A stretch of DNA of 64,000 nt from contig NC_089321.1 of NCBI RefSeq assembly GCF_036669915.1, positions 14,997,292 to 15,061,291 of the forward strand. Reading direction: 5' to 3'. The stretch comes from Pocillopora verrucosa. Its lineage: Eukaryota; Cnidaria; Anthozoa; Scleractinia; Pocilloporidae. The translations under genes were made by a program, and so were the position numbers. Each line of letters begins with the position of its first letter. The first letter of the stretch is position 1. This document shows positions 6,401-55,654 of this stretch, one piece after another. The notes beneath the pieces were generated by a model. That model was not told the DNA's origin and did not search any database. It worked only from the letters and a program-made list of their open reading frames with translations.

Positions 6401-9400
6401 CTGTGAATGAAGTTTTACAATAAGGAGTTTGACCAGATGAGAAATGCTTACAAAGCTTAAACTGGGTCAATTAGTATTCATAGCTTTAGAAAGTAACACT
6501 GTTTCCTTGGAAGGCAGACTGTATTTATATATATCTCTAATTCACACTAAAGGTGATTGATTTTTTTTTTGCTTTGTTCTTGCCAATGTGTGACTTTTGT
6601 TAAAAAAAAGATGGCATGACTGTATTGGGAACTTCGAAAATGCTAATGTTTTGTCTTTTAACTGGGTATTTAAGCAAAATTTTCAGTTTGTCAACTTGAA
6701 AGAAACAAGTCATAAAATTCCAAGTGTGTCTTGAGTGCACCTTATAGCCGAAAAAAATTATGGTATATTGCTTACTATTTTTACCTGCACAGGATTCCCT
6801 TGCTTGTCAACAATTCCACCTCCCATACTCCATTGCTTGTCAGTATATTGCACCTTGGTGCCTTCAAATGAATGTCCTTTAGAGATTTCCTCACCACATG
6901 TTGTGCTCTCTTTATTCAAAGTCAACGTCAAATTTTGTTGAGTAGACTTCTTGGCAGAGTAAACATCATTCAATGGACCAGTGGTATCTAAGTCAGAATC
7001 CTCAAACAAATCATCCAGACTAAGTGAAAACAAGTTTCTCTCTGAAGGACTGCTAGCAGCAGCAGATGTCAAACTTTTATTCCCAGACAATTCCTGTTGT
7101 TTTTCCAGTAATTTTTCCTTATTGGCTGCATCTGGGCCATTTTCAGAGGGAGTTGTTTTAGCAAATAGTACTGATTTGTTGCCATTAGCATTGTTCAAAA
7201 CTGAATTTCTTTCAGAAACTTCAATGCCACCATTTTCAGCAGTGTTTCCAGGAATCTCTTTGAAAGAATTAACCAATGTTTTGTCAATATTATTAACTGA
7301 TTCATTCATTTCAGCCAAGGTCTTGTCACTTAATGACTCACAGAGTGCTTTAGATGGCAAAATATTTGACTGGAATGAGTCTTTGTTATTCAAAATCCCT
7401 GAGTTTTTCTGTAACGGGGAAAATAAACATATTACAGGAACGTCATCTACTGATTCGCCATTTTCTGTTGATTGAGTAGAAGATTTTAGTGCATCTTTCC
7501 CTTGGTTGCTTTGACTTGTTGGTTCATGACAAGATGATTCCTCCAGCAGCAAATCTTTCTCCTTGCTTGAAGTACTTGTGGGGATTCTATTGCCAGTTGT
7601 ACCAAAAATGTTTGCTAGCTTACTATGGTTATTGTCAATATCTTGTTCCTTGTTTTGCATGTTATCATGTACAACGTTGCTGTCCAATTGAATATCCATT
7701 CCTTGTTGATTGTTTTTCACTCTGGCATCCCCAGATGTCTTGGTTCTTATCTCCCCATTCATACCACAAGTGTTAGTAATGTCACCAAGTTTATCAGTAG
7801 CAACTATTCTGTTCTCTAAAGCAACATCACAACTAGAGAGTGTGTTGTTCTCCTCTGAATAAAACTCATCCAACAGCTTTGTCAAAACTGTCATTAGTTC
7901 ATCTTGGTTTGTTAACATCACACTAGTTTTATTGGGTTCCAGATTGACGTCCAGGCCTTCAGGAGGTATCATGATGCTTAGGAAAGCAACAGGGTATCTG
8001 TTTGATGCAACAGGTGCTTTTCTGTTGTAGTATTGCTTGATCAACTGTGATTAAAAACATAAAATTTGTATAAAAACCTGCAGCTACAGTTTGTAAAGCT
8101 TGTCTTCAAACTCATTCCAAAGCATGAAGCTACAGCTGTACCAAGTGCATAGCTACCAGTAACATTTGCATGGGAATAATCCTTATACTCTTGTGCAAAA
8201 TTACACTATTTCCAAAAAATTAACACCATCCGAGATTCCCACCACATTTTTTCTCAAGCAACAGAAGTTTTCTTGTTGTTTCCACATGGTTATTTTTATG
8301 AACTGAGACAGTGCTTTTGTGATATATTCTTATCAAAATTCACTGCTCAGCATTTTGATAGACAGGCTTAGAGATAGTTATTTTTAAATTCTGATTTTAA
8401 CCCTTTGACCACTAAGAGTGACCAGCATATAATTTCCCCCCAACCTTATCACCCATGAATCATACATTTAGGTCACGAGAATAAAGAAATGATCACCAAC
8501 AAAATGCCCTTGATTGCTAAATAAATTCTCCTTGTCTGTACAGAGATCAGTATGGAGAAAATACATACTGATGTTAGAGTGTAAAAGGTTAACCCTCTAA
8601 CCCCTGCAAGTGATTAGCATCTAATTTCTCCTTACAATATCACCTCCAAAATCACACACAGAGGTTACAAGAAAAAAGGAAATGATCACCAATGATAGAA
8701 GCTCTAGATTGTTAAACAAATTCTCCCTATCAGCACCTTAGGGAATGTATTAAGAACAGTATGGAGAATATGTCTACTGATGTTAGGGTGTAAAGGGTTG
8801 ATACTGTATACACAACGAACTTTTCACCCAGATAGTTTACTAGTACAGGAGTTAATCGTACTCCTTAGCAGCGAAAAGTAGTTTAAAATTTAAATTTCTT
8901 TCGCGAGAACAGATCATAATGGCCCACAAAGAGCTTGAAGCTGAACTATCCAATAACCTGTTGGTCAATGATTCAAAATATTTTTTAAACTATATCTAGC
9001 AATAAAGATGCATTTTCTGTACCTGAGATATTTGTTTCATGTAAACAGGCCTTCCATTGAAAAATATAAAACATCGATCATTCACTGCACGTCCAGTAAC
9101 TTCCATATCAGATCCTGGCCTTGGAAGGTATCCAAGTATATGAATGCCACACTCTTCTTCATCATCATATTCTACTGAACCCATTTGTGCCAACAAAGAT
9201 GTTCCAAACACAGTCAATAATGCTGTTCGCTCATCTGCAACTTTACTCTTCTGCCAGACGACTGCCTTGTTATGACGCAAAATGATCCTCAGAGATGGAC
9301 GTATAATTGCATATGCCATCACCAAGTCCTCCACTTTTTTCAACTCTTCTTTACATTTTTTGGTGTTGCTTGAAAATTGTTTTCTCACAGGGAGGTTTTT

Positions 9401-10210
9401 AAATAAATTTGCTGCTGTAACTGTTGTCCCAGTTGTTGTAGGTTTTGGTTTGGTGGCTACAATCTTCCCATCACGTTCTAATGTGTACAACATGCCAACT
9501 TCTTCAAATTCTGTTTTTGTCAATATAGACAAATTGCTGACAGATGAGAGCGAGGCTAGAGCCTCACCGCGGAAACCGTATGTATGCAGGGATTTCAAGT
9601 CATCATCAGTTAAAATTTTTGACGTGTAATGGGGTTTGGCCAAGTAGGGAGCATCATCGGGTTTCACACCAGAACCATTATCTCGAACTTCAATTCTTTC
9701 CAATCCCCAGCCGTCCTGAAAATAGATAAAGTAAGAGCTACCAGTAAAAACTTTGCTTCAAAGGTAATCATCAAAACAGCTGTTAGACACTCAAACACCC
9801 TTGAGGGTAACAAGGAAAGATTGTCAACCAGTAGTTTTTCCTCTGGGGAGAAAATAGTTGCAATCCAAAACCAAACAAACTTATTCGCAAACTGAACCTT
9901 GGTCGAGAGCGATATATACTTTTAATAAGTTAACTTCCCGGAGAACAAATTGATCTCACTTACATGTAGCTTATTAATTTATTTGATGAACGAACATGTA
10001 CAACAAGGATTTCCCAGTAATGAGAAAAAAATATATTATAAATGCAATCAAAAATGAGCCAAAAAAAAGGAATCTTACCAGTTTGATTTCAATGCTTGAT
10101 GCTCCAGCATCAAGAGAATTCTCGATCAGTTCTTTCACTACTGAGCTAACGGAGGTTATCACTTGTGAACTAGCGATCAGCCGAATTGTAGATGAAGGTA
10201 AAAGATTCAT
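470..10210 (-). CDS. PMS1: PMS1 mismatch-repair protein (MutL homologue), 3' end off the left edge
   Basis: MutL-family DNA mismatch-repair ATPase, expected to act in the nucleus as a heterodimer with MLH1. Exons in transcript order: 10079-10210, 9023-9715, 6785-8044, 5398-5493, 4602-4652, 3879-4015, 3291-3398, 2834-2923, 1975-2049, 764-818, 470-559. Every junction has GT-AG ends and consistent phase, giving 929 residues so far. The start [15 protein letters not shown] is the standard MutL N-terminus. GHKL ATPase motifs are visible: [25 protein letters not shown] and GTTVT. A long low-complexity linker fills the 420-codon exon. The C-terminal dimerisation domain is recognisable from [25 protein letters not shown] and IPFYGVPDL. 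The rest of that domain and the stop codon lie beyond base 1. No HMG box was seen in the linker, unlike human PMS1. It is head-to-head with the SAXO gene. Confidence 0.93.
2490..2693. mobile_element. MITE with ACTAYGAGCAGTCCCTC terminal inverted repeats
   Basis: A 204-bp non-coding element inside a PMS1 intron. The left end reads ACTACGAGCAGTCCCTC followed by a T run; the right end is its inverse with one mismatch. The interior is GC-rich and CpG-rich with no open frame. A diverged partial copy of one side lies at about 3117-3220 in the neighbouring intron and ends in a similar AAGGAAGGACTGCTTG. No transposase is nearby, so it would depend on one supplied elsewhere. Confidence 0.7.
3117..3222. 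mobile_element. Diverged partial copy of the 2490 MITE
   Basis: This stretch shares the GC-rich core (CCCACAGTTCCGCGCGC against CCCAGAGTTGCGCG) and the right-hand terminus of the element at 2490-2693. The left terminus is missing or unrecognisable, so this is a remnant. Confidence 0.4.
3622..3802. repeat. TTAACCCTTT-type palindromic-end repeat, copy 1
   Basis: The repeat begins TTAACCCTTTGACACC and ends near GATGTTAGGGTG...TTTAAC, so its ends are imperfect inverted repeats. The interior (AGAGTGACTAGCATCTAATT, TTCTCCTTGTCAGCA, ACTGATGTTAGGGTG) recurs three more times in this window, always non-coding. It lies in a PMS1 intron. Confidence 0.75.
8397..8592. repeat. TTAACCCTTT-type repeat, copy 2
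   Basis: Same family as 3622-3802, in the PMS1 intron between the 693-bp and 1260-bp exons. It begins TTAACCCTTTGACCACTAAG and ends GTGTAAAAGGTTAA, giving clear terminal inverted repeats. It abuts copy 3 head-to-tail. Confidence 0.8.
8590..8799. repeat. TTAACCCTTT-type repeat, copy 3
   Basis: Directly adjoins copy 2. It begins TTAACCCTCTAACCCCTGC and ends TGTTAGGGTGTAAAGGGTT. The two adjacent members differ at many positions, which suggests an old tandem insertion or two independent insertions into the same site rather than a recent duplication. Confidence 0.8.
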
Positions 10211-15306: not shown

Positions 15307-15625
15307 AGGGTGAAAAGAGCCAACGAAAAGTTGTCAAAATGTTCAATCAAAACACGTGAACACTTATCACATGGAGCAACAGAAAATTTAACGTTAACGG
15401 CGTCAGCGTGCAATAAAGAACCCTGGGAAATGATGTTAATGTGATCCTTCGTCTCCTAGCAAATGTCATCACGAAAAATTTAACAATATTTTGAAACATA
15501 GTTCAAAAGTCATGTATATTATCTCCAGGCAATGAAACAACAAGGTTAAATCGACCTTAGACGGAGAAATCTCCTATTTCCCACGCGTCAAAGGAAGTTC
15601 CCATTCGATTAGCAACAAAGGAGAT

Positions 15626-16464
15626 TCACCTATGCAGACAAGTTGGGTAGCCAGGATAACCATTTTCGCAATCAAACCCGTAAACAAACGGAAGAAGGCA
15701 ATATGTCGATAAATACTGAGGATTTGCATAACGGCAACATGCATCGTGTTGCAGACAACCCTTGTGCAAACAACAATCGCCGCACACCCAGTGCCAGCAC
15801 CAGCATTTCTTCCCGCACATTCCAAAACATTCTTGGTCTGATCCATTGCGCATGTCTTCGCAATCGTGCGATTTCTCGTTTTTACTGGCCCCAATGTTAC
15901 TATCGTACCCAGTCCCTCTTGGAGGTTTGTGAGATTTTCCTGATGGACAAACGCGATTAACAACATTGACTTCATAATCCATGTGATTCCTTGTAAATCG
16001 TTCCATAAAATGATCCTTTGGAGTGTTCTCCAGTGGTCCTCTGGAGCGGATGAGACCCAAAAAGAACAAGTTGCATCTTTCCATAACTTTTGACAGGTGA
16101 GAACTCGACAAGTATTTGGATAAAGTTGCTGAGATTTTCTCCAGCGTTACAACTTCGTTTTCAGTAAGAGATCTTCTTCCTCTCCTCTTAAAATATGCAC
16201 CATGTTTGGTTGATCGCAAAATTTCTTTGACGAACACTTGATGATCTCCTGGGGAATTGCTTTCATAGGACAGTTCTTTGAACTTGCGTTTGATGATTTT
16301 CCGTGCGAGAGATCTCGACATGAACATCGGTACTCTCCTTTCCACTGCCTTGTGTCTGAGGTAAGTCAAAACATAGAAATGTTTATCTTTCAATCGAGGT
16401 GTAAAACTATGAAATTTCATAAGGATTGGCAACCCCAGTTGATAATAACAAATTACCTCGTTAT

Positions 16465-16496
<32 letters not shown>

Positions 16497-17162
16497 AAGA
16501 AACTTACCCCTTTATTCCTTTACCAGATGTAAACTTTGACTCATAAAGATCAAAATGTAAAATTCTTCTGAAATGTGGTCATTACACCGAAGGACCAAGT
16601 ACACAGAAGGAAAAAGACATGGTTTTACTCCAGCTACTCGTACTAATTCATTATTATTAATTATTAATTAACTAATTAATTAATTATTATTAATTCATTA
16701 TTATTGTCAAATCATTTCTAGACTAACCTTGATATGAAAGCTGCGTGTAAACTTTTATTTACTAAGCGATGGAGCAATTGTTTGTTCATGAGAAAATTTC
16801 TCGGGCGTAAACAGCAAAGCAACGCAATAGTATTATAACACAGTGTAACATCTATTCGCTGCCTACCTCAACAATCCAGCGCCGAGAACTTGTAAGTATT
16901 GGATATCTTTCTCCTTATTAGTGTGATATATCGCCAAAGTACGCCCGTTCCGATTATACGTTATACGTATTAGCCTCTCAGACATGTAGAAGCAGATCGG
17001 TGAAACTGTCTCAGCTTGGCCCTGGCCTTTCCAGCAGCCTTTAATAATACTCCCAGCAGCCCTTGTAAATTCAAGGCTCTGTGTAATTTTGGCCTCCATG
17101 TCCAAGTTAAAAAATCGGAGGAAAAAAATAAGCAAACAGCGAGAAGACAAAGATTTCTCCAT
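15626..17162 (-). CDS. Secreted cysteine-rich PLA2-like protein, paralogue B
   Basis: Two exons, 16867-17162 and 15626-16406, join in phase to give 358 residues. Exon 1 starts with a hydrophobic stretch (CLLIFFLRFF), a plausible but weak signal peptide, followed by KGCW and a VLG end. Exon 2 has a basic middle segment with a likely processing site (KRRGRRS), then a C-terminal cysteine cluster: CFGMCGKKCWCWHWVCGDCC, then HKGCLQHDACC, ending in YGFDCENGYPGYPTC. The GCxxHDxCC unit resembles the PLA2 active-site helix (CCxxHDxC), with His and Asp both present, and GMCGxxCWCW could stand in for the calcium loop. Enzyme activity is not established. It is a tandem paralogue of 17831-19357 with the same exon layout. 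I do not recognise a named orthologue. Confidence 0.7.
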
Positions 17163-17830: not shown

Positions 17831-19357
17831 CTAAACGCAGCTGGGATATCCCCCGTAGCTATCACAATTGAAGCCATAAAGAAATGGAAACAGACAGTAT
17901 CCTGACAATCGTTTTTTCCTGCAACATAAATCGTGTTCGTAACATCCCTGATGATAACAACAGTCATTACAAACAAGATTCCAGCACCAGCAGCCTGCTC
18001 CACACATTCCTAGACATTTGTTTCCATCCGGATCTCCTCTAAGATCTCTACAAGAGCTCCGCTTTCTGTCAAAAAGTCCTAGGTATCTGTGGGCGGCGGT
18101 TTGTTGGTCACGCGCGTGCGCAGCGACACCAGGCGTTCCCAGCAAGCTCATGGACATCACATGGAAGGCTTTTGTTGCGGCATTTTCTCTTGCTTCGTCG
18201 TGTAGGGCGTGCGAAACATCCAACAGAAGTTGCATTTCCGGTTTCCTTCGAAGCCTCGTCATAGCTCTTTGGTACAGCTCAGAAGAACTTTGTTTCATAC
18301 CCTTTGGCAGATCTGTAACTCTCTCAGATATTGAGTCTTCGGTCCAAATATTGGATTCCTTACCGATAACAAACGGCTCGGAGCCAGGATGGGGCCTACC
18401 ATGCAAAATGAAAACCAAAATGTATCCACCTTCTCCAGGGACTCAATAGTGTCAACCGTTAGCCGTACGTAAAACGGCCAACAAAAATTAACCGTTAGGC
18501 GTAAAAATGGACAAATCTTAGTCGTCGGTCGTAAAAAATTTTAACCCTAAAAAAAACTTTCTGGCTACAACAATGGAAAGATATTATAAGCATTAGCCAT
18601 AAATTGGCTAAAAAATCGGGGGGGGGGGGGGGTTGAGGATGTTTCTTAGTGCCATGGATCATGGGTTTTATAACAAAGTCTTTATGAGTTTTGCTTTCTA
18701 TAGAGATTAATTTTGGCGAGAATCAAAGAGCTAGCGATTTTTTTCCTTGCAAAATTTTCACTCTCATTCGCAGTCCCTCTACCCTGCTGCGCCTCCAACC
18801 TTACCTTCTCTGCTTTCACAAGTAAGCTGTTAACCTTTGGAAGGCGGTAGTTGTCTGAAATTGTTTTAGTTTAGCTCAGTTTTGTTTTTGTTTGTTTGTT
18901 TTAACGCAACAGGTTAAAAGCATTGTGAAAACTTTACTGGTTGTACAAGCATCGTGCTAAATGATTAAAATTTCATTGGGCGAAAATCACTCGCTTGTTA
19001 GTACAACAATGAAGTAATGAATATATGACTGACACTTCAAGGGGTATTTCTAAACAAAAAAATTATTACTAAAACTTACCACAAGAAATTGTGCCCCAAT
19101 ACTTTTACGTGAGTTCTTTGACGATTTGGCTTACTAAATTGCACCAGTACATTGTTGTTTGTGTCTGTCAGTTGTACAAACCCGCGCTGAATCTCGAAGC
19201 ACAAAGAAAGTCTTTCGTTTTTACAATAGCAACCCTTGACGAAGCTATCTGAGCGATTCTCTAGCTTGAGAGGGGATTCACCAGGAGTACATCCTAAAGT
19301 TGCATCACAGAGGCAGACCAGGAATAAAATTTGAAGCAAAAAATGTTGTAAAGTCAT
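17831..19357 (-). CDS. Secreted cysteine-rich PLA2-like protein, paralogue A
   Basis: Two exons, 19080-19357 and 17831-18395, give 280 residues. The start at 19357 was chosen because it opens a clear signal peptide (MTLQHFLLQILFLVCLCDA) followed by a mature region with paired cysteines (KGCYCKNE). An upstream in-frame ATG at 19498 would bury it. Exon 1 ends at VLGHNFLW, the same place as in paralogue B. The C-terminal domain reads CLGMCGAGCWCWNLVCNDCC, then HQGCYEHDLCC, then LYGFNCDSYGGYPSC. The putative catalytic HD pair is intact. The intervening segment is helical and charged, unlike classical sPLA2, which starts near its calcium loop. It could be an enzyme, an inactive PLA2-fold protein or a matrix or venom component; the sequence alone does not decide. 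Confidence 0.72.
18468..18640. repeat. CCGTTAGCCGTA-type repeat with poly-G tract
   Basis: Short degenerate repeats of CCGTTAGCCGTACGTAAAA and AACCGTTAGGCGTAAAAATG lie just upstream of exon 2 of PLA2-like paralogue A, in its intron. They are followed by TTAACCCTAAAAA and a run of about 14 G. This looks like a dispersed non-coding repeat; I cannot name the family. Confidence 0.4.
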
Positions 19358-28700: not shown

Positions 28701-31405
28701 GTCAAAACGTTTAAAGAGCAGTTAAAGGTTACATTTCTCTCTTTCCAAAATCTTTTGCTTCAAGTGTCTCTCTGCCACTTAAAAAAAGGCATTCTCTCGA
28801 ATGTTCGCCAGCATGACATTTCGTTTTCTGTGAAATAGGTCTCACCTGGCCCAGGGATCAAGGCCACAAGTTGGTTTACTCCATACACTGCATATTCCAA
28901 CAATGGGACTGCTGAAGGGAGACTGGTGTACGTCAATCAAGGAACTGCGAAGGATTTGCAGAAGTTGGAGAAACTTAATATATCTCTGAATGGCACCATT
29001 CTGTTGACACGAGACTTTTGGAGTTTTTTTACCTTGGTATGTGAAGTTTTCCTCTTTCTGACTACATATGCAATTGGTATATAATTCAGGATGACTCATG
29101 CGAGATGCCATTAGCGCTATTGTACAAAGACTGCACGTTGCTGTGACTTTCTATTCTGTGTTAGTCCTAGTCCTGGTTTTCGTAGTCCGACAGAATTTTT
29201 ATTCAATTAAATGTTGATTTTATTTCCAGATGCTTAGGTCAAAGGTTCCATGTTATTGTAAGATATTGCACTTGTTAAAATGTATTTCCTTCAAGTCTTC
29301 TACGTTTTAGCGTCTTGATTCTCTTTGAGCCAATTTCTAACTAGGCAAGATTGTCCCACTTTTTTTTTCCACTCGCCATAAGAAATAGAACTGTTTACTT
29401 ACCTATGTATTTTCTTGTTTTCTCATTAGTCTCAATTAGCCGTCAACAAAGGTGCTAAAGGGATCCTAATGTACCCAGACCCTAACATCTACGCCCCAAA
29501 AGGCATAGAAAAAAATTTCACTTACCCCAACGCACCATGGCTTTCCTCTGAAGCAGTTCCTTTGGGTGGAGTCTATGGTGAGCTTGGCGACCCCTTGTCA
29601 AAGGGAGTCCCTGCCAAAGAGGGCATCTTCCAGAAATCAAAGAAGGACTGGCACGTTGGATTGCCCATACTTTTACAACCAATATCGTATGGGACAGCAC
29701 GGTCTCTATTGGAGGAAGTTGGAGGTAAGGATGAACATGACATGATTGAATTGTCCCAGATCAATGGTGCACAGATATGAAAAGCGCGAACGATGGGTAG
29801 TATGTGCTACAGCTTTGTTGGACAATGGATGGGGAAAGGTGCTCTAACTTCGATAGAAACTTTCAGTAGCTTTGTTTTATACCGTTAAGTGAGTAATATA
29901 TTTAATAATCATGCATGAATGAAACGGTGAAAACCTCAGCAAGGTGTAATACTCGTAAGGTAGGCTTACGGGCTTGAAGTTACTGAGGTCAACTGCAGAA
30001 CGTAAGCATTTTTTTCTATGCTTTACATTAAATTTTTTAACTCCTTTAGTCTCTTATTGTAACCCGCGATAAACCAAATATTTATCTTTCTCTACCAGTG
30101 GATGATATACCCCCAGAATGGCTTAGAGAGCTCAACCTCACGTTACAACTTAACCCTCGAGGCTCTCGAGGAAGGAACAGAACCATAAAACTGACCATCA
30201 ATAATCAGCTGGTTCAAAAGACGATTTATAACGTGATCGGCACTATTAACGGCTGGCAGGAACCAGATCGGTACGTTTTCTTAGGAAACCACCGAGATGC
30301 ATGGGTATATGGCGCTGCGGATGCAACCACGGGGATGGCAGTTCTGAAGGAAACAAGCAGAGTATTGGGGAAACTTATGAAGGGCGGTTGGAGACCAAGG
30401 AGAACAATAAAACTGTGCAGCTTCGGTGGAGAGGAATTTGGCCTGATAGGTTCTGTTGAATGGATGGAGGAAAACTCTTTGATCTTTAAGGAGCGAGGTG
30501 TGGCTTACTTGAACACTGATGTTCCAGTGCAAGGAAATTATGTTCTTTTGGCTCAATCTAGCCCACTGCTAAGCGACATTATATACAAATGGACAAAAAT
30601 GGTTGAGGTGCCATTTGAAAAGGGTACTTATAAGTCCATATATGATGTAATGTTGGAGCGTGGACCAACGCCTTCAAACCCACATGAGCCAAAACTTTGG
30701 GCTTTCCAGTTTGCGAGCGATTACATACCGTTCTTCTTCATGGCGGGTATACCATCCGCAGATTTTAGTTATTTCTTTGGCTATGATGAGAATAAGGGTG
30801 GTTGGCAGCTTTATCCATCTTATCATACTCAGGAAGACAATTTTTACTGGGTGAAGAAATTTGCTGATCCTGAGTTTGAGATTCACCGCGCCATGACTCT
30901 ACTCATGGGTGGCATGTTGTTGGATTTATCAGACTCTCAGATCATCCCTTTCAATTTATCACGACTCACGAATACTCTTCATCGAGCGTTTAATAGCCTT
31001 ACGGCCTTACAATCGTCGTTTATGTGGGAAAAAGCGGTACGTGAGAGCATTTCAGCTGTAAACAGATCCATATCGAACTTCTCAAGATCATGCGATTCGT
31101 TTACGAACTTTGTCAGTGAAGTTAGTCGTGGAAAAAACGTGAATCCTCTCACAGTGCGATTGTTAAACAACCAGTTGAGCCAAGTTGGAAAACCCTTTAT
31201 AGATTCCAGACTTATTACCACAAACCCTCATATTTACCTGAATGTTCTTTTCAGGGACACTTTTATAGGCGTTTTTGGAGCGTTTCAGGAAGCCAATAAA
31301 ACTAATGATACCACAAAGATTCGGGAGCAACTTTCTATAGTTTCAGTAGCTATTTCCACAGCTGCTAAGATCTTAGAACCTATCAAACTTCCCGAGAAAA
31401 AATGA
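25705..31405 (+). CDS. FOLH1: Glutamate carboxypeptidase II-like M28B zinc peptidase (NAALADase)
   Basis: Type II membrane metallopeptidase of the FOLH1/NAALAD2 group; relatives remove C-terminal glutamate from peptides or folate polyglutamates at the cell surface. Exons 25705-25988, 28514-28727, 28839-29036, 29430-29724 and 30099-31405 join in phase to 765 residues (human FOLH1 has 750). A short cytoplasmic tail ends in RPKKK; the membrane anchor follows at about residues 29-50 (HIVLIVLFIGIISASGGFLL). A protease-associated region contains GRLVYVN and GAKGILMYPDP. All M28 di-zinc positions are present: GNHRDAWVYGAAD (His, Asp), FGGEEFGLIGS (Glu-Glu), YLNTDVPVQGNY (Asp) and PSYHTQED (His). The C-terminal dimerisation domain ends LEPIKLPEKK. 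The whole catalytic and C-terminal half sits in one 1.3-kb exon. A poly(A) signal is at 31728-31733. Assignment to one vertebrate paralogue is not possible here. Confidence 0.92.
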
Positions 31406-42800: not shown

Positions 42801-45800
42801 CGGATATTTATTCACCTACAACATATATATATTTTATAATACTTACAAATCGATTCGAAGCCGGCAGTTGCATTTCGTTAAACATCTAGAATAAATGGCT
42901 TTTATACTTTATTATTGAAATCACCTACCAGCAAGGAATTATTGCTGGTGACAATTAGGCCACTGAGTTTTGAAACAGAATCATTTGCCTGAGATAAAGA
43001 AAACGGTGGTTAGGTATATAAACCACAAATTTCATGAAAAATTAAAAATATTACGATATATAAATAAGAAAAAATATAATGTATATCACCAGCTTCTGAA
43101 TTTCTTTCAACTGTGATTTAGAAGAAGATGTCGATAATGGAGCTAAAGAAAATGTCAATGTTGGTGATGGTAATGGTACAGACTTTAGTACTGATGAGGG
43201 CGGTGTTGATGATCTCTCTACTGAGATGTTTGACGGTGGGGATCTTATTGAAAATAACGTTAATGATGGTACTATTAATGAAGACGGTTTCGTTGACAGA
43301 ATTTCTATTGGAAATATAATTGATGACGAAGATGTTGATGACGACCTTGCTGTTGCTGACACTGTTGAGTAAGGAGATGTTGGTAGTAATGTTGCTGCGG
43401 TTGATACTGATGATAACGATGGTTTTAACAACAACCTTGCTGTCGATAATACCATTGACGATTGAGTTGTTGGTAATATTCCTGGTAATGATAATACCGG
43501 TGATGAAGATGGGAACAACTTTCCTACTGTAATTATTATTGATGACGAAGATGTTGGTGATGACCTTGCTGTTGCTGACACTGTCAAGAAAGGAAATGTT
43601 GGTGGTAATGCTGCTGCGGTTGATACTGATGATAACGATGGTTTTAGCAAGAACAGTGCTGTCGATAATACCATTGATGACTGAGTTGTTGGTAATAATC
43701 CTGATAATGATAATACCGGTGATGAAGATGGTTTTGGGAACAACGTTTCTATTGTTAATATTATTGATGACGAAGATGTTGGTGATGACCTTGCTGTTGC
43801 TGACACTGTCAAGAAAGGAAATGTTGGTGGTAATGCTGCTGCGGTTGATACTGATGATAACGATGGTTTTACAAAGAACCGTGCTGTCGATAATACCATT
43901 GATGACTGAGTTGTCGGCAATAATCCTGGTAATGATAATTCCAGTGATGAAGATGGTTTTGGGAACAACGTTTCTACTGTAAATATTATTGATGACGAAG
44001 ATGTTGGTGATGACCTTGCTGTTGCTGACACTGTCAAGAAAGGAGATGTTGGTGGTAATGTTGCTGTGGTTGATACTGATGATAGCGATGGTGATTAGTC
44101 AATGATTGTCACTGATTATCAATAGCTCAAGTGATTATTACTTGAGCTATTGAGGATTTTCTCAGGGCTGGAAATCCGTGTAAAAAAGGACCGTTTTTAA
44201 CATAAAACCATTCTAAGGCACCTTAGCTCTAGTAACGAGAATAAATAAAAAATATTATAGAGGGGAAAAAATGTCAAATTCTGATTCAGGGTTATTTATG
44301 TCTTCCCCTGGGCCCAGGGAATAAAACTTAACTAAAAAAAAAAATAAAACAAAACACAAAAACCAAAAAGTAAAATAGAACTTTAGTGCCCTGCCTATCT
44401 TTTTTATAGGGAGCGTGACGATTTCCTTTAACGAACTTACACGAAACTCCATAGCAAATCACTTTATTCCTTATCATTATTATTCAAAACCCATTACCCT
44501 TTCATCATGGCTGTCTTTCTTTGGAAGCATCAAACCAGATATCACGGCTAGATTTTTCGGATACCTTCTCCGTGTTTATTTTCAGTTTTTCATTTATTTT
44601 TGTGAAAGCGTGTTTTTAGAGATTATCATACAAAATAAATGCTGCTGCGGTTGATACTGATGATAACGATGGCTTTAACAATAACCTTGCTGTCGATGAT
44701 ACCATTGACGACTGGGTTGCCGGTAATAATCCTGATAATGATAAAACCGGTAATGAAGATGGTTTTGGCACCAAGAACCAGTTGCAAATATAGAAATGAA
44801 AAACTAATAGTAAATCACACCAAAACATCAAAAAAAAAACAAACAAACAAACAAAGAGCCAAACAAGCAAAAACTTGTAGAGCGGAACTACCTGCAGCAA
44901 TCATGCGCATACGTTTTAGAAATTATTTGCTGAGCGTGCGTTGGATCGCACTAACACCTACGAGATGGCAAATAAGCAATTGCATATTCAAAGAGTGCCA
45001 TTGGAAAACTGTTCAATTAAAATCTTGCTGCGTGAGCATGTATAAATTTTTTTTTTGGATTAAGTCTCATAATTAAAAAAGTCTAGTTAGTCTCGTAAAA
45101 ACGAGAGGAGGTCGTTTCTACATTCAAGTGCCAAAACAGCAAAATGATTCGATGACATGTGCATCAAATTTTCACACAAAATAATGATGATAAAATAAAA
45201 ATGCAAAAAAACGATAGTCTCTTAGAGTGAACGGCTACAATACTTCCGATACTTGCACTCAAGCATGTTCAGGCTCCAACCTAATATAGTGTCATATTTC
45301 ACGATCAAATTTATATGATGGAGCCTTAAATACATTGATGATTTCGTCTTTTTCATTACGATGCTACTCAACTGTCAGCCCAATTTTCCCCTTTTTTTGC
45401 TACGTTTGAAACGATAAATCACTTTTTGTTCAAGATATCATACGTCAGCACCCTCCACGGCTAGTGTGTTGGTTACAATTTACTTGATACATGTAAACAA
45501 AGGAGATTTTAAATTATTAACTAATTGTGATGGTATGCACGTTCTGATTGGTCAACTGACTAGCTTAGATGAAAGTATGTAAACACAATTGTGACGTCAC
45601 GCTTTTAGTGTTTAACGTCGTAGTTTAAAAGTATTTGTAACTCAAAGCTTTTGCAGTACTTTCAGAATAATCTCGAGAACAAATGAAAAATATTATAAAG
45701 GGAAAAAAATGTCAAATTCTGATTCGGGGTTAGCTGTGTCTTCCCTTGGGCCCAAGGAATAAAAATTAACTAACAACAAAAAAAAAACAAAAACAAAAAA

Positions 45801-46851: not shown

Positions 46852-48127
46852 GATCGTTAAATTTTATTTCTTATGGACGTTTTGGCAATTATTTCGTACC
46901 TTGCATCTTGCTTCATTTCCAATTGAAGTGACTTGGATTCCTGAAAATGTTCCAAACGACAACTCTGCCGAAGACCGTGTCTCGTATTGCTGGACTTAGG
47001 TCCAGTGTTCTTAGTTTTTTTCTATATTACACCTCTGAACTCCCACTTGTTTATTTGTAACAGACCAGTGGGAGCTAGGACTCTCAGCACTAGGTGTTAA
47101 GCATTGTTTTTACCGAAACAAAGGTAAATTTACTGGCAAGTTTTTCAAGTGTCAAAATGCAGAAAATATTCGTGCGCTTGTATACGTAAGATTATAACTT
47201 TGATCATAATGAACTAAATATTTAACAACTGTTTCTCTAAACGATAACTGCGTTATGCAAATGCTAGGATAATTAAAGTCTCCCATCTGTTCTTATCGGA
47301 AACTTCAGGTTAAACACTATTGGTTAACACAAACATCAAAAGCCTCCCACCTGGCTTAAAGTTTCGTTATCTTTCCCAGCTTTAGTTTTTGAAATGACTT
47401 CTAGCAAGTCAGCACTCGGCAAAAATATCGTCAAGTTTTGAAAATTCACCTACAAGCATCGCTAGACTACCATTTACTAGAGCATCCTTTTTTATTTTTT
47501 ATCTACATTTTTGGAATGCTACCCCATAAGAACTAATCCCTCTGCGCCTGGAACACAACACTTGAGGGAAAAAATGGCTGCTGAGACGTAATTTGGTGAA
47601 ATATACATCAGGACTTTTCCAACCGCATTAATAATCAAGGAAACAAACATGCAAACTACCAAAAACGAAGGAAATACATGAATCGCTATATAAAATGGCG
47701 TGGTGTCCTAAAAAAGTCTCAGTCATCATTTTGATCGAAGACCGTGTCTTGTAATGTTGAACGTGTGTCAGTATTCAATGCGTTTTAGTAATTTTACCTC
47801 TGAACTCCCACCATCATAGACGAAAGTTAGCAGGTGCGTGCCTCGACGATAAAATCAATCCTTGCTATTAACGTAGAAAACACCAAGAGTTTAATGGCCA
47901 AACATTTTCACTGGGTTTACCTATCCTTCGGTCCTCACCCCTCCCCTCTAATTCACGCTCTTCAGGACTATCGTTAGCAGTCCGGGCCATGGACAGTTTT
48001 GTCTATACATTACCTTTGATATGATTGGTCTTAACAAAACCAAAACAAACTGATGTGACCGAGAGAGGAGTGGGACAATAATTTTTCTTGTTAGCTTTCT
48101 CGTGGCGGCCTTGTTGATATGCAAATT
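46497..48127. other. Spacer with microsatellite and a diverged direct repeat
   Basis: No gene is recognised. It should include the adhesion GPCR promoter just right of 46496. A CATA/TA microsatellite lies at 46770-46848. Segments at 46966-47050 and 47733-47815 share GAAGACCGTGTCT and ACCTCTGAACTCCCAC in the same order. Confidence 0.5.
46770..46848. repeat. (CATA)n(TA)n microsatellite
   Basis: Several CATA units run into an uninterrupted TA tract. Non-coding. Confidence 0.95.
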
Positions 48128-49126
48128 CACGGCTGTTTCAAAACGCCCGCCAGTGGAAATTTAGTTCGCGCATGTCAGATTGACATTTTCAATTTGAAAC
48201 CGCTGAAAACGTACGTTTAACGGCTCAACAAGAAAGAGCCCAATGATAACTAGGTCGCAAAAAGTATATGCGCAAAGCCCAAGGAAATAGCTACCTTATG
48301 CGCAGACATTGTATTTTGCTTCCCTGGTTAATGTTCTCCTTGGGAAGATTGCGTGTGCGGGATAGTTTACTATGCGACGGCTTAATGGCATCTTGTTTTG
48401 ACGCGAGATGACTTATCGCCTTTCTGAGGTCTTCTTATTTTCAGGCAAGATTCTGATTGATTCGAATTTTTCTTTCAATAAAGGAACAACTCAGGCTTTA
48501 CGTCTCTCCTTTGCCATCAGTTTCTTTACCATGACGTTTTAATCCGAATTGTTTTGAGCGGTGTAATCTGCGATTACACATCACCACCGAAATACTAAAT
48601 ATGGCGTCCATCTCCCCTTTGACCTCGAACTAATGCCCCTAAACTACGCGAATTTATCCTCTGAATGATCTCATGCTTACCCATGGGCTAAACAAAGAAT
48701 ACACGATGTATGACAAACTGATAAAATGTCCACGGCCTTCTGTTACGTGCAAGAAAGTCGAACTACGTGCGTGTGATTTCCTTCCCGAAAAGTGTATGTC
48801 ATCGATCTGTCACGGGGAGCTACGTGAAATAGTGAAAGCACGGACAAGACGTTTCTTTCGGTCAACATTTCAATCATGATCACGGATAATAAACCTTACA
48901 ATTATATGTTACCATTTGTGCTTTGATCTGATAGTTAAATCGTTTTTCTTGGCCATGATTAACATGGTTTTTGGCGAATATTCCCTCCCCCTTCAAATGG
49001 AATGAACTACACGCAATAACACAAGAATGCAAATATTCCCGCACCCCTAAAGAGCCCATCGAGAGAGATAAATAGACACCCCTTCCTGAAACAAGGTACA
49101 AACCCTAAGGGTGTACCCTTCTGAAG

Positions 49127-49134
49127 CAATAAAA
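49127..49134 (+). promoter_or_regulatory. Possible TATA-like box for the RAG1-N-like gene
   Basis: AATAAAAGG lies about 105 bases before the start codon in the otherwise exon-free left part of the putative element. It could set a start site near 49155. A weak motif match only. Confidence 0.25.
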
Positions 49135-49233
49135 GGCCGGTAAAAGGAACTTCGGAACATATCTTGAGTCAACTTAGAACTGCGTTGCTTTATCCAAGTT
49201 TAGTTTACAACTCGGTTCGATTAGTGCATTCAG

Positions 49234-52200
49234 ATGGCTAACTTTGGTCTCTCTGAACATCAACAAATATTGGAAAAAATTTGCCGAATTTGTGGAGAGC
49301 GATTGAAGAAGGCAAAAGATAAGTATGAGAACAGTTTTCTTTGCGCTGATAAGACGGAGATTATTTTCACAGCCTTTGGTGTCAAAGTTCGTAAAGATGA
49401 CCTTGACATGTGCCCTCCTAAGTTCTGCCACAAGTGTTACAAGCTTGCTTTAAGAGGAGGCACACGCCTTGCAATCAATGTGTGGCCTCCACACAAACGC
49501 ACTGGAAACTGTAAGATCTGCAGTTTCTTTAAGGATCAACAGAAACCTGGTAGGAAGAAGAAGACTAAACCTGGAATAAAACCCAGAGAGGACTCAGCTG
49601 AACCCAAGCAACAAGTGGAAATGGTGGAAGGAATGTCTGGCACTTTAAGCTTCCAACCTGACCCAGCCTCACTCTCATTCTCTGAGGAGGTAAAGAATCT
49701 ACAAAGCTTTAGAGGATCAGAACCTCTTTACCCAGAACAGTTTGTTGAAAACATCAAGCATGAGTATATGTGCCCAATTTGCAAAGAGGTACTTGATCAA
49801 CCAGTCCAGACAAAATGTCAAACTCCACACATATTTTGTGCTAGTTGCTTATCATTTTCTTTCGAAATGTGTGGATCCCTTTGCCCAATGTGCCGAACTG
49901 TCATTGTAAATCCTAATGAGTTCATTGAGCCAGCCCCTTTTGTTCTTCGCACCATACTTTCAGAGTTAGATTTTCGATGTCCTACCTGTAAACACACAGT
50001 AAAACTTCATCAACTACCTCAGCATCAAGAATGTTGCATTCAAAGCCCTACAACAGCACCCACACACATCTTGACCCCTTCACAAAGATCAGTTCCAGTG
50101 ACACCATCCCTCCTTGTGCCAGTGAAACCCATACCTGCAGCAGAGGAAAAGGGACCAGCACCGGTAAATGTACCATCAGTACAAGCAGAACCTACAACCA
50201 CCACTGATACAAATACAACCTGCAGACAACAACTGACAGTTGATCAACTACTAACCAGCCCAAAGGAAGCTTATACATCCCTAAAGGAGGAAGTTGGATT
50301 GTTCATCATTAGACAGTTCCTTTCACAGTCTCAGGATGGGGCAACCATTCTCCTCAAAACAGGTGGCCAGGTAATAAAATATTTTTTTAAGTTAAAAATT
50401 AAGACATTCATTTTCAAAACAAAAGATAACAATTCATTTTCAGCCCTTAGAATTAGTGAAAAGGACCAGGGCAAGGAAAACAACTGATGAGGTAACAAGG
50501 AAAACTGCTAGAAATAGATCAAAGGTAGTAGCAGAGACCAGGACAGCTGTCAGTGGTGGTGCAGCTGGTACCCAATTGAAAGATGAACTGCGTGCAATGG
50601 GCAGACTGGAGAGGGAGGCACTGCTGAAGGAGGCCTTGGGAAAGGAATTTAAAATCACCATTCCAAGAGGTGACATCCTGGCAATGAAAGCAGACCTTGG
50701 TGAGACATGGTACAAAGTTAGAAAGCTTAGGAGGTAAGAGAAACATGAACAAAAAAAATCATTAAAAACCCCAAAGATTTTCCAAAGACATTAGATGTCA
50801 GTAACAGTAACTGTTTTGAGTTTGTATTCAAATTTGCCAACTGCCTGAATACCCTCAATCTGCTTACAAAATTATGATAACTATTATGTCTCTACAGATG
50901 GTTTGATCAATGGGGACTATCCTCAGAAAGTGAAAGAAGTCAACGAAAGCAAGTTCAGTCCATCACTGACCTGGCCAACTTGGTTTGTGAAATGGTCCCA
51001 TTTGAATTAAAAAAACCAGGATGCCATCCAGAGGTCAGGGAAGCAGAGTTTGGTTATGTTACAGACCTGAACCAATTCATACATCTTCATCTGAATGAAA
51101 ATGAAAAGTATGATATAAAGAAATAGTTAAAAAAGTAAATGCAATCACTAGATTAATGATTGAAATTAAACAAAGTTAGCTGTTGCCTATTGCTGTGAAT
51201 TATAGTCTAATTATAGTTGGTTATCATTTTAGGAATGGAAGGCTGACATGGAACAATGCAATCCCAGAAAATGAAGTCCACATAAAACTTGGAGGAGATG
51301 CTGGTGGTGGGTCATTTAAAATGGCCTTCCAGATTGCTAACCTGAGGCATCCAAATTCTAAAACCAACACAGTGGTCTTTGCCATGTTCCATGCAAAAGA
51401 TAGTTGGGCTAATTTAAAGACAGCCTTAATGAAATATAAAGAACAAGTAAACACCTTGAAAGAAGCAACCTGGGCGTAAGTGAAAACAAATTTACCACAC
51501 TTTTAGTTAGTCAGGAGAATAGAGACTTGAAATAGCATAATATTAATTAAATTTTTATTTTTGTTTTGCCCATTTCTAGAGGTAAAAAGAAAGTGGTTTT
51601 CCTGTTTGGTGACTATGAGTTCCTATGCAAGCTATTTGGAATAGCTGGTGCCTCAGGTACGATCCAGACAATAATTCACATATACAAATAATTATGATTT
51701 AGCAATTCAATAAAAGAATATAAATGTAGCCTCTACTCTACATAACTATTTCTGTGAAACAGGTTTCCACCATAAGAATTGTATTTGCAGGCAAATATCC
51801 ATGTCTTTGGTGCAAGATAAATAATGAAGTAATGCAAGTCTCTTGCCATAAACGTGGGCATGCTGAAAAACGAAGTCTTGAAAACATTCAAGAGGATTAT
51901 GATAAGTTTGTAGCAGATGGCTCTGTTACAAGTCGACAGAAGTTTTATCACAATGTGATTCACGAGAAACTGCTGGACATTGAATTGGACAAAGTAAGAT
52001 ACAAGAGTTTATTTTATTGCTTTGAAGAGGGACTTACAGGCCACCTAACTAAATGGTTGTCTATTTCAGGTTTGTGTTCCTGGACTTCACATTAGCTTGG
52101 GTGTGTTTAAGAAACTGTTTGACGAACTAGAGAACCAGTGCTTTGAGCTGGACAAAAAAATTCAAATGGTGCTAGCAGGAGACAGTGAAGAGAATGATGA

Positions 52201-53430
52201 GAAAATCCAGGCATTCAGAGCTGCCCAACTACATACCAGACAAGCACAACAATTTAATGAAAAAGCCAATTATTTACAGGAGTTGCTGAATTTACAAAGT
52301 CTGCATGCTAATGTTGATATCATGCCTGCCTACTTTACACTACTACAGGAGGAGATAGACAAACTCCTTGGAAATGCAAAGGAGGAGGTAAAAATAATAT
52401 ATTGGTGCTTTCCAGTATCATAGCTGTACAATCCTCCAAATCCATTTTACATGTTTCAAACCCATCTGAATTTTTTAGTTAAAGAAGTTATGATTTTATT
52501 TGTAATATTAAAATGGCTCAAATTATCAAATTATAGCAACTAAGCAGTAAGTCAAATAACCCAGATTTAAATAGTATTATCTCAATATTATAGGAAAAGC
52601 TTGCAGATGAACAAATGGAATTGGCTGCCTTTGAGAAAGCCAATGGACCACTATCGGTTCATTTGGATGAGGTTCTCAAGAAAATGAATGTTGAGAGACA
52701 AGCTTATCATGGAAAATCATTCATTGGTAACCATGTACACACTTGCTGCAAGGTAACACAAATTCTACCCTTAGAGTAGGAATTTGTTGAGTCACAAAAT
52801 TTCATTGAATTGTTGCATTTGTTTTTTTGGTAGGAAGACAACATCATCAAACTATGCAGTGCTGTGCTGACAAAAACAGAGGAGCTGTGTCCTTCCCTCC
52901 TTTCTCAAGCAAGAGAAATTAGCGTGAAATTTGAACAAGTTTTTAGGTTATTTGCTGCTTGCCACTTTGTCTATGACAGTGCAGACTATCTCAATGATGG
53001 CAAGATTGATAAGCTAGGTAACTGAAAGAAAAAACCTGACTTTCATGGAAAAACATGAATACAGTAATAAGATCATGTCTTAAGTCCACCTTGTTTTCTT
53101 GTTGCAGAGGAAGACATCACAGATTTTCTTCAGTTCCTTAGAGAAAAATTTCCAGACATGACAATCACACCAAAGCTGCATATGCTAGAAGAACATGTTT
53201 GCCCTTTTCTTCGACAATGGCACATGGGCCTTGGATTCTACGGTGAACAAGGGATTGAAGGAATACACTCTGAATTCAATACCCAGTCCCAGCATTTTGA
53301 CCATGTGAAGAAAAAGGACACGAGATTGCGTCAAATCCTTGTCAACCATCACATTGCCACGAGTCCGGAACTAGCAGGGAAAGCTCCCAAACCTAAAGAA
53401 AGAAATTTAAAACGAAAAGCGAACGAGTAA
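49234..53430 (+). CDS. RAG1 N-terminal-like zinc/RING protein fused to a transposase-like domain
   Basis: Ten exons, all in phase: 49234-50370, 50444-50733, 50898-51107, 51233-51475, 51580-51656, 51791-51993, 52070-52387, 52594-52752, 52834-53017, 53108-53430, giving 1047 residues. The N-terminus follows the RAG1 zinc-dimerisation plan: CRIC (17-20), FCHKC (64-68), CKIC (93-96), then a basic stretch. A canonical C3HC4 RING follows (Cys180, 183, 195, His199, Cys202, 205, 217, 220; CPICKEVLDQPV, CPMCR), then a C2HC finger (CPTCKHTVKL...HQECC). RAG1 uses this region as an E3 ligase. The body is not the RAG1 core as I know it. Its conserved-looking acids and zinc motif are LGGDAGGGSFK (~568), FGDYEFLCKLFG (~638), YPCLWC, PGLHISLGVF and GEQGIEGIHSEF (~990), suggesting an RNase H-like transposase. 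Catalysis is unproven. The poly(A) signal is at 53534. Confidence 0.8.
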
Positions 53431-53533
53431 AACTCTTTCCTTTTCAATAGCAATGTATCGGTTCGATGACTAACAACGAGTACTATGTGTGTAAATATAG
53501 TGTAATTTATTTGCTCAACTTCTAATTTAGACG

Positions 53534-53539
53534 AATAAA
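53534..53539 (+). promoter_or_regulatory. Probable poly(A) signal of the RAG1-N-like gene
   Basis: AATAAA 104 bases after the stop codon, followed by a GTGTT stretch, a good arrangement for cleavage and polyadenylation. Confidence 0.55.
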
Positions 53540-54445
53540 AGTGTTACTACAATCTTTGGAACCAAAACTAAACCTTTCCAGTCGTTTACAGACTGTTTCA
53601 CTTGAAATTCAGTACCTCCGAGATTCAAAATGGAGTCGCATAACGGCCGATCTTAACATATTAAAAGTGCCTCGAATGGAGTCTTAAACAATTCGGATTA
53701 AAACACTTACCTCTGTCGGTTGTTCAGTAAGGTTTCAAGTCTTCTCTTTTGACTCTTGCTTTGCTGGAAAAAATTCGAGCCTTTTCCAAATTGAAATCAA
53801 AGTTTTCAGTTGATTTAATAGGGTGTGCTTGTTAGACTCCACCATAGCAACGTGTTTTCGTCGAACACAGGCAAAATTTGACCGATTTTACTCAAATTTT
53901 CGACGGCAAATGCCTCTTTCATGTGTAAGCATCCGCCATGCTAAATTTCGACCGCATACATTAAATATGCAGCAAGATTTCATTGGCTAAACTATATGTT
54001 AGCCCAAGGGGTTGCCATGGACGCTAGATTTATGCAAATACATAATTTTGTATTAACCAGAGAAATAATAATTAACTCGATCTTTCCTGTAGACCGCATG
54101 CGCGAACTAAATTTCCACCGCGAAACAGCCGTGGCAAAGGAGACGGCGGAACAGAATTCAAATTTCAAGAGACCTCATTTGCTTATTTCTGTTATTCATA
54201 TTTGTATTACTGTACTACAAATCTCATTTTCGACAGACATGTCATCTCTATTCTGGTGAGATGTCTAAAAGACACCTCGTGGAAGATAGTGACCGATCAA
54301 ACAACATATTTACTGCAATCTCATCTGAAATTTCCACATGAATGTTAAAAGAAATGTTTCAATCAATCAATCAATCAATCTTTATTCGTCCTAAGACATA
54401 TCTTAAGTTACATCAGTTGTTAAGAGTCTAAGAATACATGACATA

Positions 54446-54490: not shown

Positions 54491-54593
54491 TAGAGGAAGT
54501 CTGCAAGTCGATTTTCGCGTGGAACAGTGCTCAATACGTTGAAGCAGAGCAGAATAAATATTATGAGAGAAAAAAAACGACGCAACTACATTT

Positions 54594-54634
54594 CCCGACA
54601 AGCCTGTTTCGTGAATCGCTTCACTCTTCAGGGG
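54594..54634 (-). ncRNA. Hammerhead ribozyme motif, minus strand
   Basis: The inverse copy of the plus-strand motif, identical through the core: first core strand from the complement of 54631, same stem II and 3-bp stem III, cleavage-site C at the complement of 54597. Since both copies are intact, the arms are either recent or kept identical by gene conversion or selection. Confidence 0.75.
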
Positions 54635-54662
54635 TTTAATGGTTCAATTCAGGGGTTTTAAA

Positions 54663-54703
54663 CCCCTGAAGAGTGAAGCGATTCACGAAACAGGCTTGTC
54701 GGG
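54663..54703 (+). ncRNA. Hammerhead ribozyme motif, plus strand
   Basis: All core positions fit. CTGAAGA (54666-54672) is the first core strand; position 7 is free to vary. Stem II is GTGAA/TTCAC with a GCGA loop (54673-54686). GAAA (54687-54690) is the second core strand. Stem III is a 3-bp ACA/TGT with a GGCT loop, followed by the cleavage-site C at 54700. Stem I can pair CCC (54663-54665) with GGG (54701-54703). The tiny stem III is typical of mobile-element hammerheads, which often act as dimers. Confidence 0.78.
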
Positions 54704-55654
54704 AAATGTAGTTGCGTCGTTTTTTCCTCTCATAATATTTATAATATATATATAATATATATCATACTCACAAAATGCACGGATCAACAGGGAAACATAT
54801 TTAATAAAGCATAACAACCACAGACAGCAGCAGAAAATACCTCAGGCGTTCTGTATTGGGCGTCTGCAAACTAAGGAAGACTAGGAACCAAACTTCCCAG
54901 CTGGCCAGCGAGCTATACGCAGATTTTTTGCGCGAAAAAGAATATGTCATTCATTTCAACAGATCCTCTATGTTCAACGTGGCGGCAAAAGGTTTTTCCT
55001 CATATCAATAACTGCTCAACAAAAAACCTACGATACATATTGAAGCAGTGTTAAAATAGAAATAGCGTGATATTTTGGCTGAAAATAAAATATCTTTCTA
55101 TTTGAAGAGGCGGTTGTCACAAATAAACATATTTCTGAATCAATATACGCGGTGTATGCATATTCGCATTAAGAAAATAATTTCATTTGAAATTTACCCT
55201 TTTTCTCGTGCTCAATATTATGGTGAGGAAATAGAATGTTGCGTGGATAAGATTCGATGGGCAACAAAAATGAGCAGTGATGGTCATATCGTAGAGTCAA
55301 TAGCTTGAACATAGGAGACGCGGTTCATCGTGTTGTTTGATCGAACGTGAAATACGTCATCATTTACGTTATCATTTTACCCGTCAAAACAGAACATAAT
55401 CAACATAGATGGGGGACAAAGTAGATTTTATTTTGACAAAAAGCTTGATTAATAGGCCAAGGTCAATGAATTTTGGAGGAATTTGTTTCCGGCTTATTAT
55501 TAGGGATGGTACATTTAAGTGGATGGGCTAATGTTATTAAAGCCCAGAGCATTTGCACCGAAGCCGGAAAGAGAAGCTCATTCATCAGGATGTCAGTCCT
55601 CGTCCGCTCCTGACTAGCGTCAAAATTTGAATTTGAAGTCATGAAATCAGAAAT

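Follow-up and report, generated by a model that had tools for sequence, protein, structure and literature searches.

The transposase gene and its element

The DNA analysed here (the window) is a 64-kb stretch of the genome of the coral Pocillopora verrucosa, and all coordinates below are positions in it. On its plus strand, at 49234-53430, it carries a gene predicted to encode a transposase of 1047 residues, in which a RAG1-type zinc module and a RING precede the transposase body, and the gene lies inside a Chapaev-type DNA transposon copy of 6006 bp (48128-54133), in which it was the one gene found. The splice model, computed from the DNA, comprises ten exons with GT-AG boundaries at 9/9 introns and a frame open to the TAA stop, in agreement with the intact ten-exon gene of the first-pass annotation, whose named motifs were also all found, in the order given there. 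The top model was ahead by 1.9 score units, and the four runner-up models shown depart from it at junction 1 or at the final acceptor, by 2-7 residues.

Exon 1 (49234-50370) encodes the Chapa/RAG1_imp_bd zinc module (residues 8-112) and the RING with the following zinc finger (residues 166-268), and ends in the GGQ of a GGQP motif; its cysteine motifs are CRIC (17-20), FCHKC (64-68), CKIC (93-96), CPIC (180-183), CPMC (217-220) and CPTC (249-252). Exon 2 (50444-50733) was placed by the splice model and characterized by a sub-profile comparison, with its register taken from a structural alignment; the body follows from exon 3 (50898-51107), where the DUF1280 match begins. LGGDAGGG (565-572), encoded in exon 4 (51233-51475), supplies the first catalytic aspartate, D568, which was placed by motif and model topology only, and FGDYEFL (636-642), in exon 5 (51580-51656), supplies the second, D638, which aligns with RAG1 D708 when the family profile is compared with RAG1. 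The PCLWC of YPCLWC (655-660) lies in exon 6 (51791-51993), with C657 and C660 aligned with RAG1 C727 and C730, and PGLHISLG (724-731) in exon 7 (52070-52387), with H727 aligned with RAG1 H795. Exon 8 (52594-52752) contains the GNHVH region and exon 9 (52834-53017) follows from the splice model, whereas exon 10 (53108-53430) carries LHMLEEH, whose H965 and H970 correspond to RAG1 H937 and H942, and GEQGIEGIHSEF (986-997), in which E991 aligns with RAG1 E962 in the same profile comparison. A candidate AATAAA polyadenylation signal lies downstream on the same strand (53534-53539).

The element around the gene, with its terminal inverted repeats and its copies elsewhere in the genome, had been missed in the first reading. 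Its borders are those of the outermost blastn matches to 15 other places, which stop at 48127/48128 and 54133/54134, several copies being truncated inside. The left terminal inverted repeat (48128-48174, plus strand) reads 5'-CACGGCTGTTTC ... GTGGAAATTTAGTTCGCGCATG, and the right (54097-54133, minus strand) reads 5'-CACGGCTGTTTCGCG GTGGAAATTTAGTTCGCGCATG in reverse complement; CACGGCTGTTTC starts at 48128 and its reverse complement ends at 54133, giving 5'-CAC..GTG-3' termini that other copies share. These repeats were found from the copy borders; an inverted-repeat search around the gene gave 133 pairs, and the top 25 by length, AT-repeat pairs almost without exception, did not include them. 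The inner 22-mer of the terminal repeat has 18 matches in the genome (at most 2 mismatches), compared with 0 for the reversed control, and opposite pairs of it occur at four places: the window, C10:15.86 Mb, C12:6.37 Mb and C4:4.69 Mb. Further in, GTTTTAATCCGAATTGTTT at 48536-48554 (plus strand) has an exact inverted partner at 53686-53704 (minus strand); this 19-bp sub-terminal pair is a candidate second transposase-binding site and recurs in five other copies (L034, L035, L039, L040 and L047). Shuffles gave a mean of 0.05 matches, and two or more in 1/100, for a pattern that was chosen after being seen.

Relationship to RAG1 and to Chapaev transposases

The N-terminus had been proposed to be related to RAG1 through more than its RING, and this is upheld by a match of Pfam PF12560 (RAG1_imp_bd) to residues 8-112 (E = 1.4e-7; 31.8 bits vs a curated cut-off of 23.3), which we took as the Chapa/RAG1-N module, the comparison being with the Pfam model and not with the Repbase Chapa model itself. 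Mouse RAG1 in the Protein Data Bank (PDB) aligns with residues 41-264 (E = 1.2e-9), and pairwise alignment with RAG1 151-372 gives 61 identical positions, which include C65, H66, C68, H87, C93, C96, the eight RING ligands, C249, C252 and H264. The observed scores of the zinc part and of the RING part were not reached in 1000 shuffles, even with cysteines and histidines fixed, the margin of the zinc module over the fixed shuffles being narrow (68 vs a shuffle maximum of 67). By eye, the RING has its full set of C3HC4 ligands (residues 180-220), and the Pfam RING models listed all score under their own cut-offs in the coral transposase. Over the RING part alone, TRAF6 (41.9 bits) scores as well as RAG1 (41.2 bits), so that the RING says nothing on its own about kinship with RAG1, and the zinc module is the specific evidence. 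A generic RING protein was also considered, and is ruled out by the PF12560 match together with the mouse RAG1 alignment. A profile search of the 353-Mb genome located RAG1_imp_bd at a minimum of two sites, in the window and in the copy most closely related to it; the true number may be higher, as other copies of the same element that keep the region fell below the threshold.

For the body, described earlier as transposase-like, Pfam PF06918 (DUF1280) matches residues 529-623 (E = 5.3e-17; 62.6 bits vs a cut-off of 25), and DUF1280 represents Chapaev transposases, which have been grouped with RAG1 (PMC3985635). The hallmarks of Chapaev given in the available portion of PMC4079192 are the C(2)C, LH and H(4)H motifs and CAC..GTG termini; the coral protein has the three motifs as C657/C660, L726-H727 and H965/H970. 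Conservation was assessed in 42 sequences, the window protein included, and counted over those with a residue at the position: the catalytic residues are retained in 38/40 (D568), 41/42 (D638) and 37/37 (E991), and the hallmark residues in 41/42 (C657 and C660), 41/41 (L726 and H727), 37/38 (H965) and 38/38 (H970). In a structure search with a model of the homologue P0002, Foldseek ranks 1-46 and VIA ranks 1-35 were all RAG1, BbRAGL or HzTransib; the core is 16-18% identical to RAG1 in the structural alignments, and fewer residues of P0002 align with HzTransib (411 vs 456 and 459). The model thus supports a RAG1 fold for the Chapaev core, and an RNase H-like DDE catalytic site is predicted for the coral body from its conserved residues and the fold of P0002. 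The structure prediction suggested for the body gave a RAG1/Transib-type fold, for P0002 and not for the window protein, and the homologue's fold and the correspondence of catalytic and zinc residues with those of RAG1 speak against the earlier assignment of the body to a different transposase class.

Three protein searches, each scoring only about 8000 candidates, recovered homologues from Branchiostoma, Hydra, the sponges Ephydatia and Halichondria, and the corals Pocillopora, Stylophora and Porites, as well as from many unnamed ENA contigs. Among the 41 homologues aligned, Pfam matches at E 0.001 place DUF1280 in 37 and RAG1_imp_bd in 12; precomputed annotation places both in the lancelet proteins P0022, P0027 and P0031, and the pairing recurs on unnamed contigs. 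Hydra P0011 and P0013 have a RING (PF00097) above cut-off ahead of an alignable body, with zinc-module cysteines that were seen by alignment only. The third of these searches, with a RAG1 fragment in the query alignment, yielded no entry named RAG1 among the best 120 of 127 matches. The pieces of one Pocillopora verrucosa protein, P0061, are 77-100% identical to the window and 88-100% to the copy L034, and the protein is identical to neither. In the portion of Kapitonov and Koonin (2015, PMC4411706) available to us, two Chapaev subgroups, attributed to Kapitonov and Jurka (2007), carry the Chapa domain and then a RING, as in RAG1; the lancelet and the starlet sea anemone are named as hosts of Chapaevs, and the presence of Chapa, RING and core in Chapaev is taken to imply an ancestral fusion of all three. 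Like these subgroups, the coral protein combines a RAG1-N-type zinc domain, a RING and a DUF1280 transposase. As the architecture is published for Chapaev and the lancelet homologues share the pairing (with a RING ahead of the same body in Hydra), it is not an independent event, contrary to what the first-pass annotation had suggested; the architecture is already known and the coral copy is a new member.

Taking as direct results the gene, the element ends, the dispersed copies, the family assignment, the homologue's fold and the residue correspondence, we are confident that the locus holds an autonomous Chapaev-type DNA transposon of the Chapa and RING kind (Chapaev-Mirage-CACTA group) in intact form. 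Several observations nevertheless weigh against this assignment. The fold is that of P0002, which is 29% identical over 95%, and not that of the window protein; the similarity of the family profile to RAG1 is modest (P = 0.0024 and hhalign probability 12%, vs P = 0.65 for reversed RAG1); and a plain sequence search of the body (phmmer vs PDB, to E 10) returned no RAG1 chain and nothing better than E 0.83. No convincing target-site duplication was seen, only two copies (the window and C12) keeping both outermost ends: the window flanks, left AAATT and right GCAAA, match at 1/5 positions, the word GCAAA occurring 2 bases off on the left, and those of C12, GGTCT and GATCT, match at 4/5, in two flanks that resemble each other like the units of a diverged tandem repeat. 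Chapaev target-site duplications are given as 3-4 bp in the part of PMC4079192 available.

Against the PDB, the profile of the 41 homologues matched the RAG1 chain 21wb (E = 2e-6) over profile positions 7-69 only, and the other 37/38 sequences listed to E 1 have other names and E 0.08 or worse. The Pfam RAG1 model, PF12940, is not among the families listed to E 10 for the coral transposase; its 0 matches in the whole genome are uninformative, as control genomes gave none either. The likeness of the body to RAG1 was resolved by the model only. A body that yields no RAG1 chain in a plain search and has no listed Pfam RAG1 core model, behind RAG1_imp_bd and a RING, would fit an independent fusion of a RAG1 N-module to an unrelated transposase class, but we consider such a fusion extremely improbable in view of the RAG1/Transib-like fold of the homologue's body, with its corresponding catalytic and zinc residues, and of the pairing common to the lancelet proteins and reported for Chapaev in the text of PMC4411706 that we could draw on. 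That the element is instead a true RAG-like (RAGL) or Transib transposon would agree with a fold and module order as in RAG1 and with the possible 5-bp duplication at C12, but the body is DUF1280 and its sequence similarity to RAG1 only distant, and, gene exons aside, the element has no stop-to-stop frame longer than 116 residues (no RAG2-like profile search was made); we regard this reading as very unlikely. RAGL/ProtoRAG (BbRAGL) and Transib (HzTransib) differ from the coral element in sequence family and in termini.

Copies, selection and domestication

The genome-wide copy count, proposed earlier as a check, was obtained with a six-frame search that gave 86 matches, grouped into at least 16 places, the window included. 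All 15 other copies carry a stop or a frameshifting indel, some being fragments down to 96 codons. The flanks beyond the ends differ among most copies, with two exceptions. L039 and L040, two copies on C6 about 1 Mb apart, share lesions and a flank and are likely a segmental duplication; and three left-end fragments on C14 (L050 and L051; 12.16-12.21 Mb; 919 aligned positions) have one flank common to all three, which makes duplication along with host DNA more probable than transposition.

The first-pass annotation had left the choice between a domesticated gene and a low-copy element, and it is the low-copy element that the data bear out. The CAC..GTG termini in the window and the lesions in 15/15 other copies mark the window copy as an intact member of a low-copy Chapaev family, with no sign of domestication seen. 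A host gene derived from a Chapaev transposase and kept for a cellular function could account for the window copy being the only fully open one among the 16 places, and for the close relatives in other pocilloporid corals. Domestication would be expected to leave a single copy with its ends lost, whereas both terminal repeats are retained here, and the nearest copy is 97.3-98.5% identical with different flanks, which indicates a recent insertion. Pairwise dN/dS between the window and the 15 other copies is 0.25-0.68, as expected of a once-constrained transposase with decaying copies. Over 710 codons, with other copies used to polarise the changes, 3 of those assigned to the window branch are synonymous and 6 nonsynonymous, vs 5 and 15 for L034; the changes on the window branch give no sign of constraint and are too few to show purifying selection on this copy. 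We consider domestication improbable.

Proposed mechanism, possible collinearity with RAG1 and neighbouring features

As a working mechanism for the Chapaev-type transposon, the single gene would supply the 1047-residue transposase, which by homology would act as a dimer and contact the terminal repeats with DNA-binding segments located ahead of the body and within it. The RNase H-like site (D568-D638-E991), beside a C657/C660-H965/H970 zinc site, would cut the CAC/GTG ends, and the element would be pasted elsewhere; family, fold and ends all point to such cut-and-paste DDE transposition, and the copy may be mobile at present. By analogy with RAG1, the zinc module and RING might have accessory roles in nuclear entry, dimerisation and ubiquitin ligation.

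The segment between the RING and the body may also have a counterpart in RAG1. In the available part of PMC6941560, the RAG1 nonamer domain is described as opening with GGRPR, which resembles an AT-hook, and continuing with three helices, and in that of PMC9435367 an equivalent domain with GRP is reported for Transibs. A GG-x(0-2)-P motif occurs in 21/29 sequences that cover the segment where RAG1 has its nonamer-binding domain. Among 12 windows of RAG1, the sub-profile of this segment scored best against residues 389-488 (P = 0.027), and 0/200 shuffles reached the observed 16.0, by a hair's breadth (shuffle maximum 15.9). In the structural alignment of P0002, the match reaches model residues 281-290, opposite the beginning of the nonamer domain, in 8/30 RAG1 rows, where the rmsd rises to 5.8-9.2 Å, and the other 22/30 begin at 346-350; for exon 2 folded by itself, pLDDT was 62 and pTM 0.22. 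The open full-text literature, with subscription papers and Repbase Reports outside its scope, held no joint mention of Chapaev and the nonamer domain, and we view the segment as a mildly new piece, for which the evidence is suggestive and not firm. Collinearity of Chapaev and RAG1 over their whole length (zinc module, RING and zinc finger, GGxP nonamer-like segment, dimerisation/DNA-binding region, and RNase H core with zinc site) is accordingly a tentative proposal, to which we give slightly less than an even chance. If it is true, all RAG1 modules were joined before Chapaev and Transib/RAG split, and no foreign N-terminus was added late to make RAG1.

Compared with known systems, the coral family resembles Chapaev, by description and not by Repbase entries, in termini and in the C(2)C, LH, H(4)H and DDE motifs, and differs by its ten-exon gene. 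Chapaev and Transib are united in the CMCT group by C(2)C and H(3-4)H motifs in the available text of PMC12730594. With vertebrate RAG1 the coral family shares the module order, the RING with the following zinc finger, the catalytic and zinc residues, the GGxP start of the nonamer-domain segment and, judging from the homologue model, the core fold; it differs in lying in a mobile element with terminal repeats, in which no RAG2-like partner was seen (no search was aimed at RAG2). N-RAG-TP of Aplysia (Panchin and Moroz 2008), known here by description, is likewise a mobile element with RAG1 N-terminal-like sequence; it differs in being reported, in the portion of PMC8355894 available, as the RAG1-N-like part only, and may represent part of a Chapaev. 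With the coral locus, what looked like a separate RAG1-N fusion is no longer one, and an intact Chapaev transposase of complete architecture becomes available from a coral; the model of an ancestral fusion behind RAG1 (Kapitonov and Koonin 2015) can now be tested with an intact non-vertebrate protein that includes the RING and a possible nonamer equivalent.

Elsewhere in the window, a perfect inverted repeat with two 68-nt arms and 18 nt between them lies just to the right of the element (54572-54725). Exons of a MutL/PMS-type DNA mismatch repair gene occupy 6758-9757 on the minus strand (PF01119, E = 1.5e-11; the ATPase match is under cut-off), and an open frame at 30050-31405 on the plus strand has Peptidase_M28 and TFR_dimer domains and is presumably glutamate-carboxypeptidase-like. 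Also on the minus strand, frames at 15574-16519 and 17831-18442 have in common a cysteine-rich C..GCWCW..VC..CC...GC..HD.CC motif, with no Pfam match in the two frames scanned, and by eye we take them to be phospholipase A2-like; at 43051-44098, long tandem-like repetitive frames, Ser/Thr- or Ile/Asn-rich, run in two reading frames.

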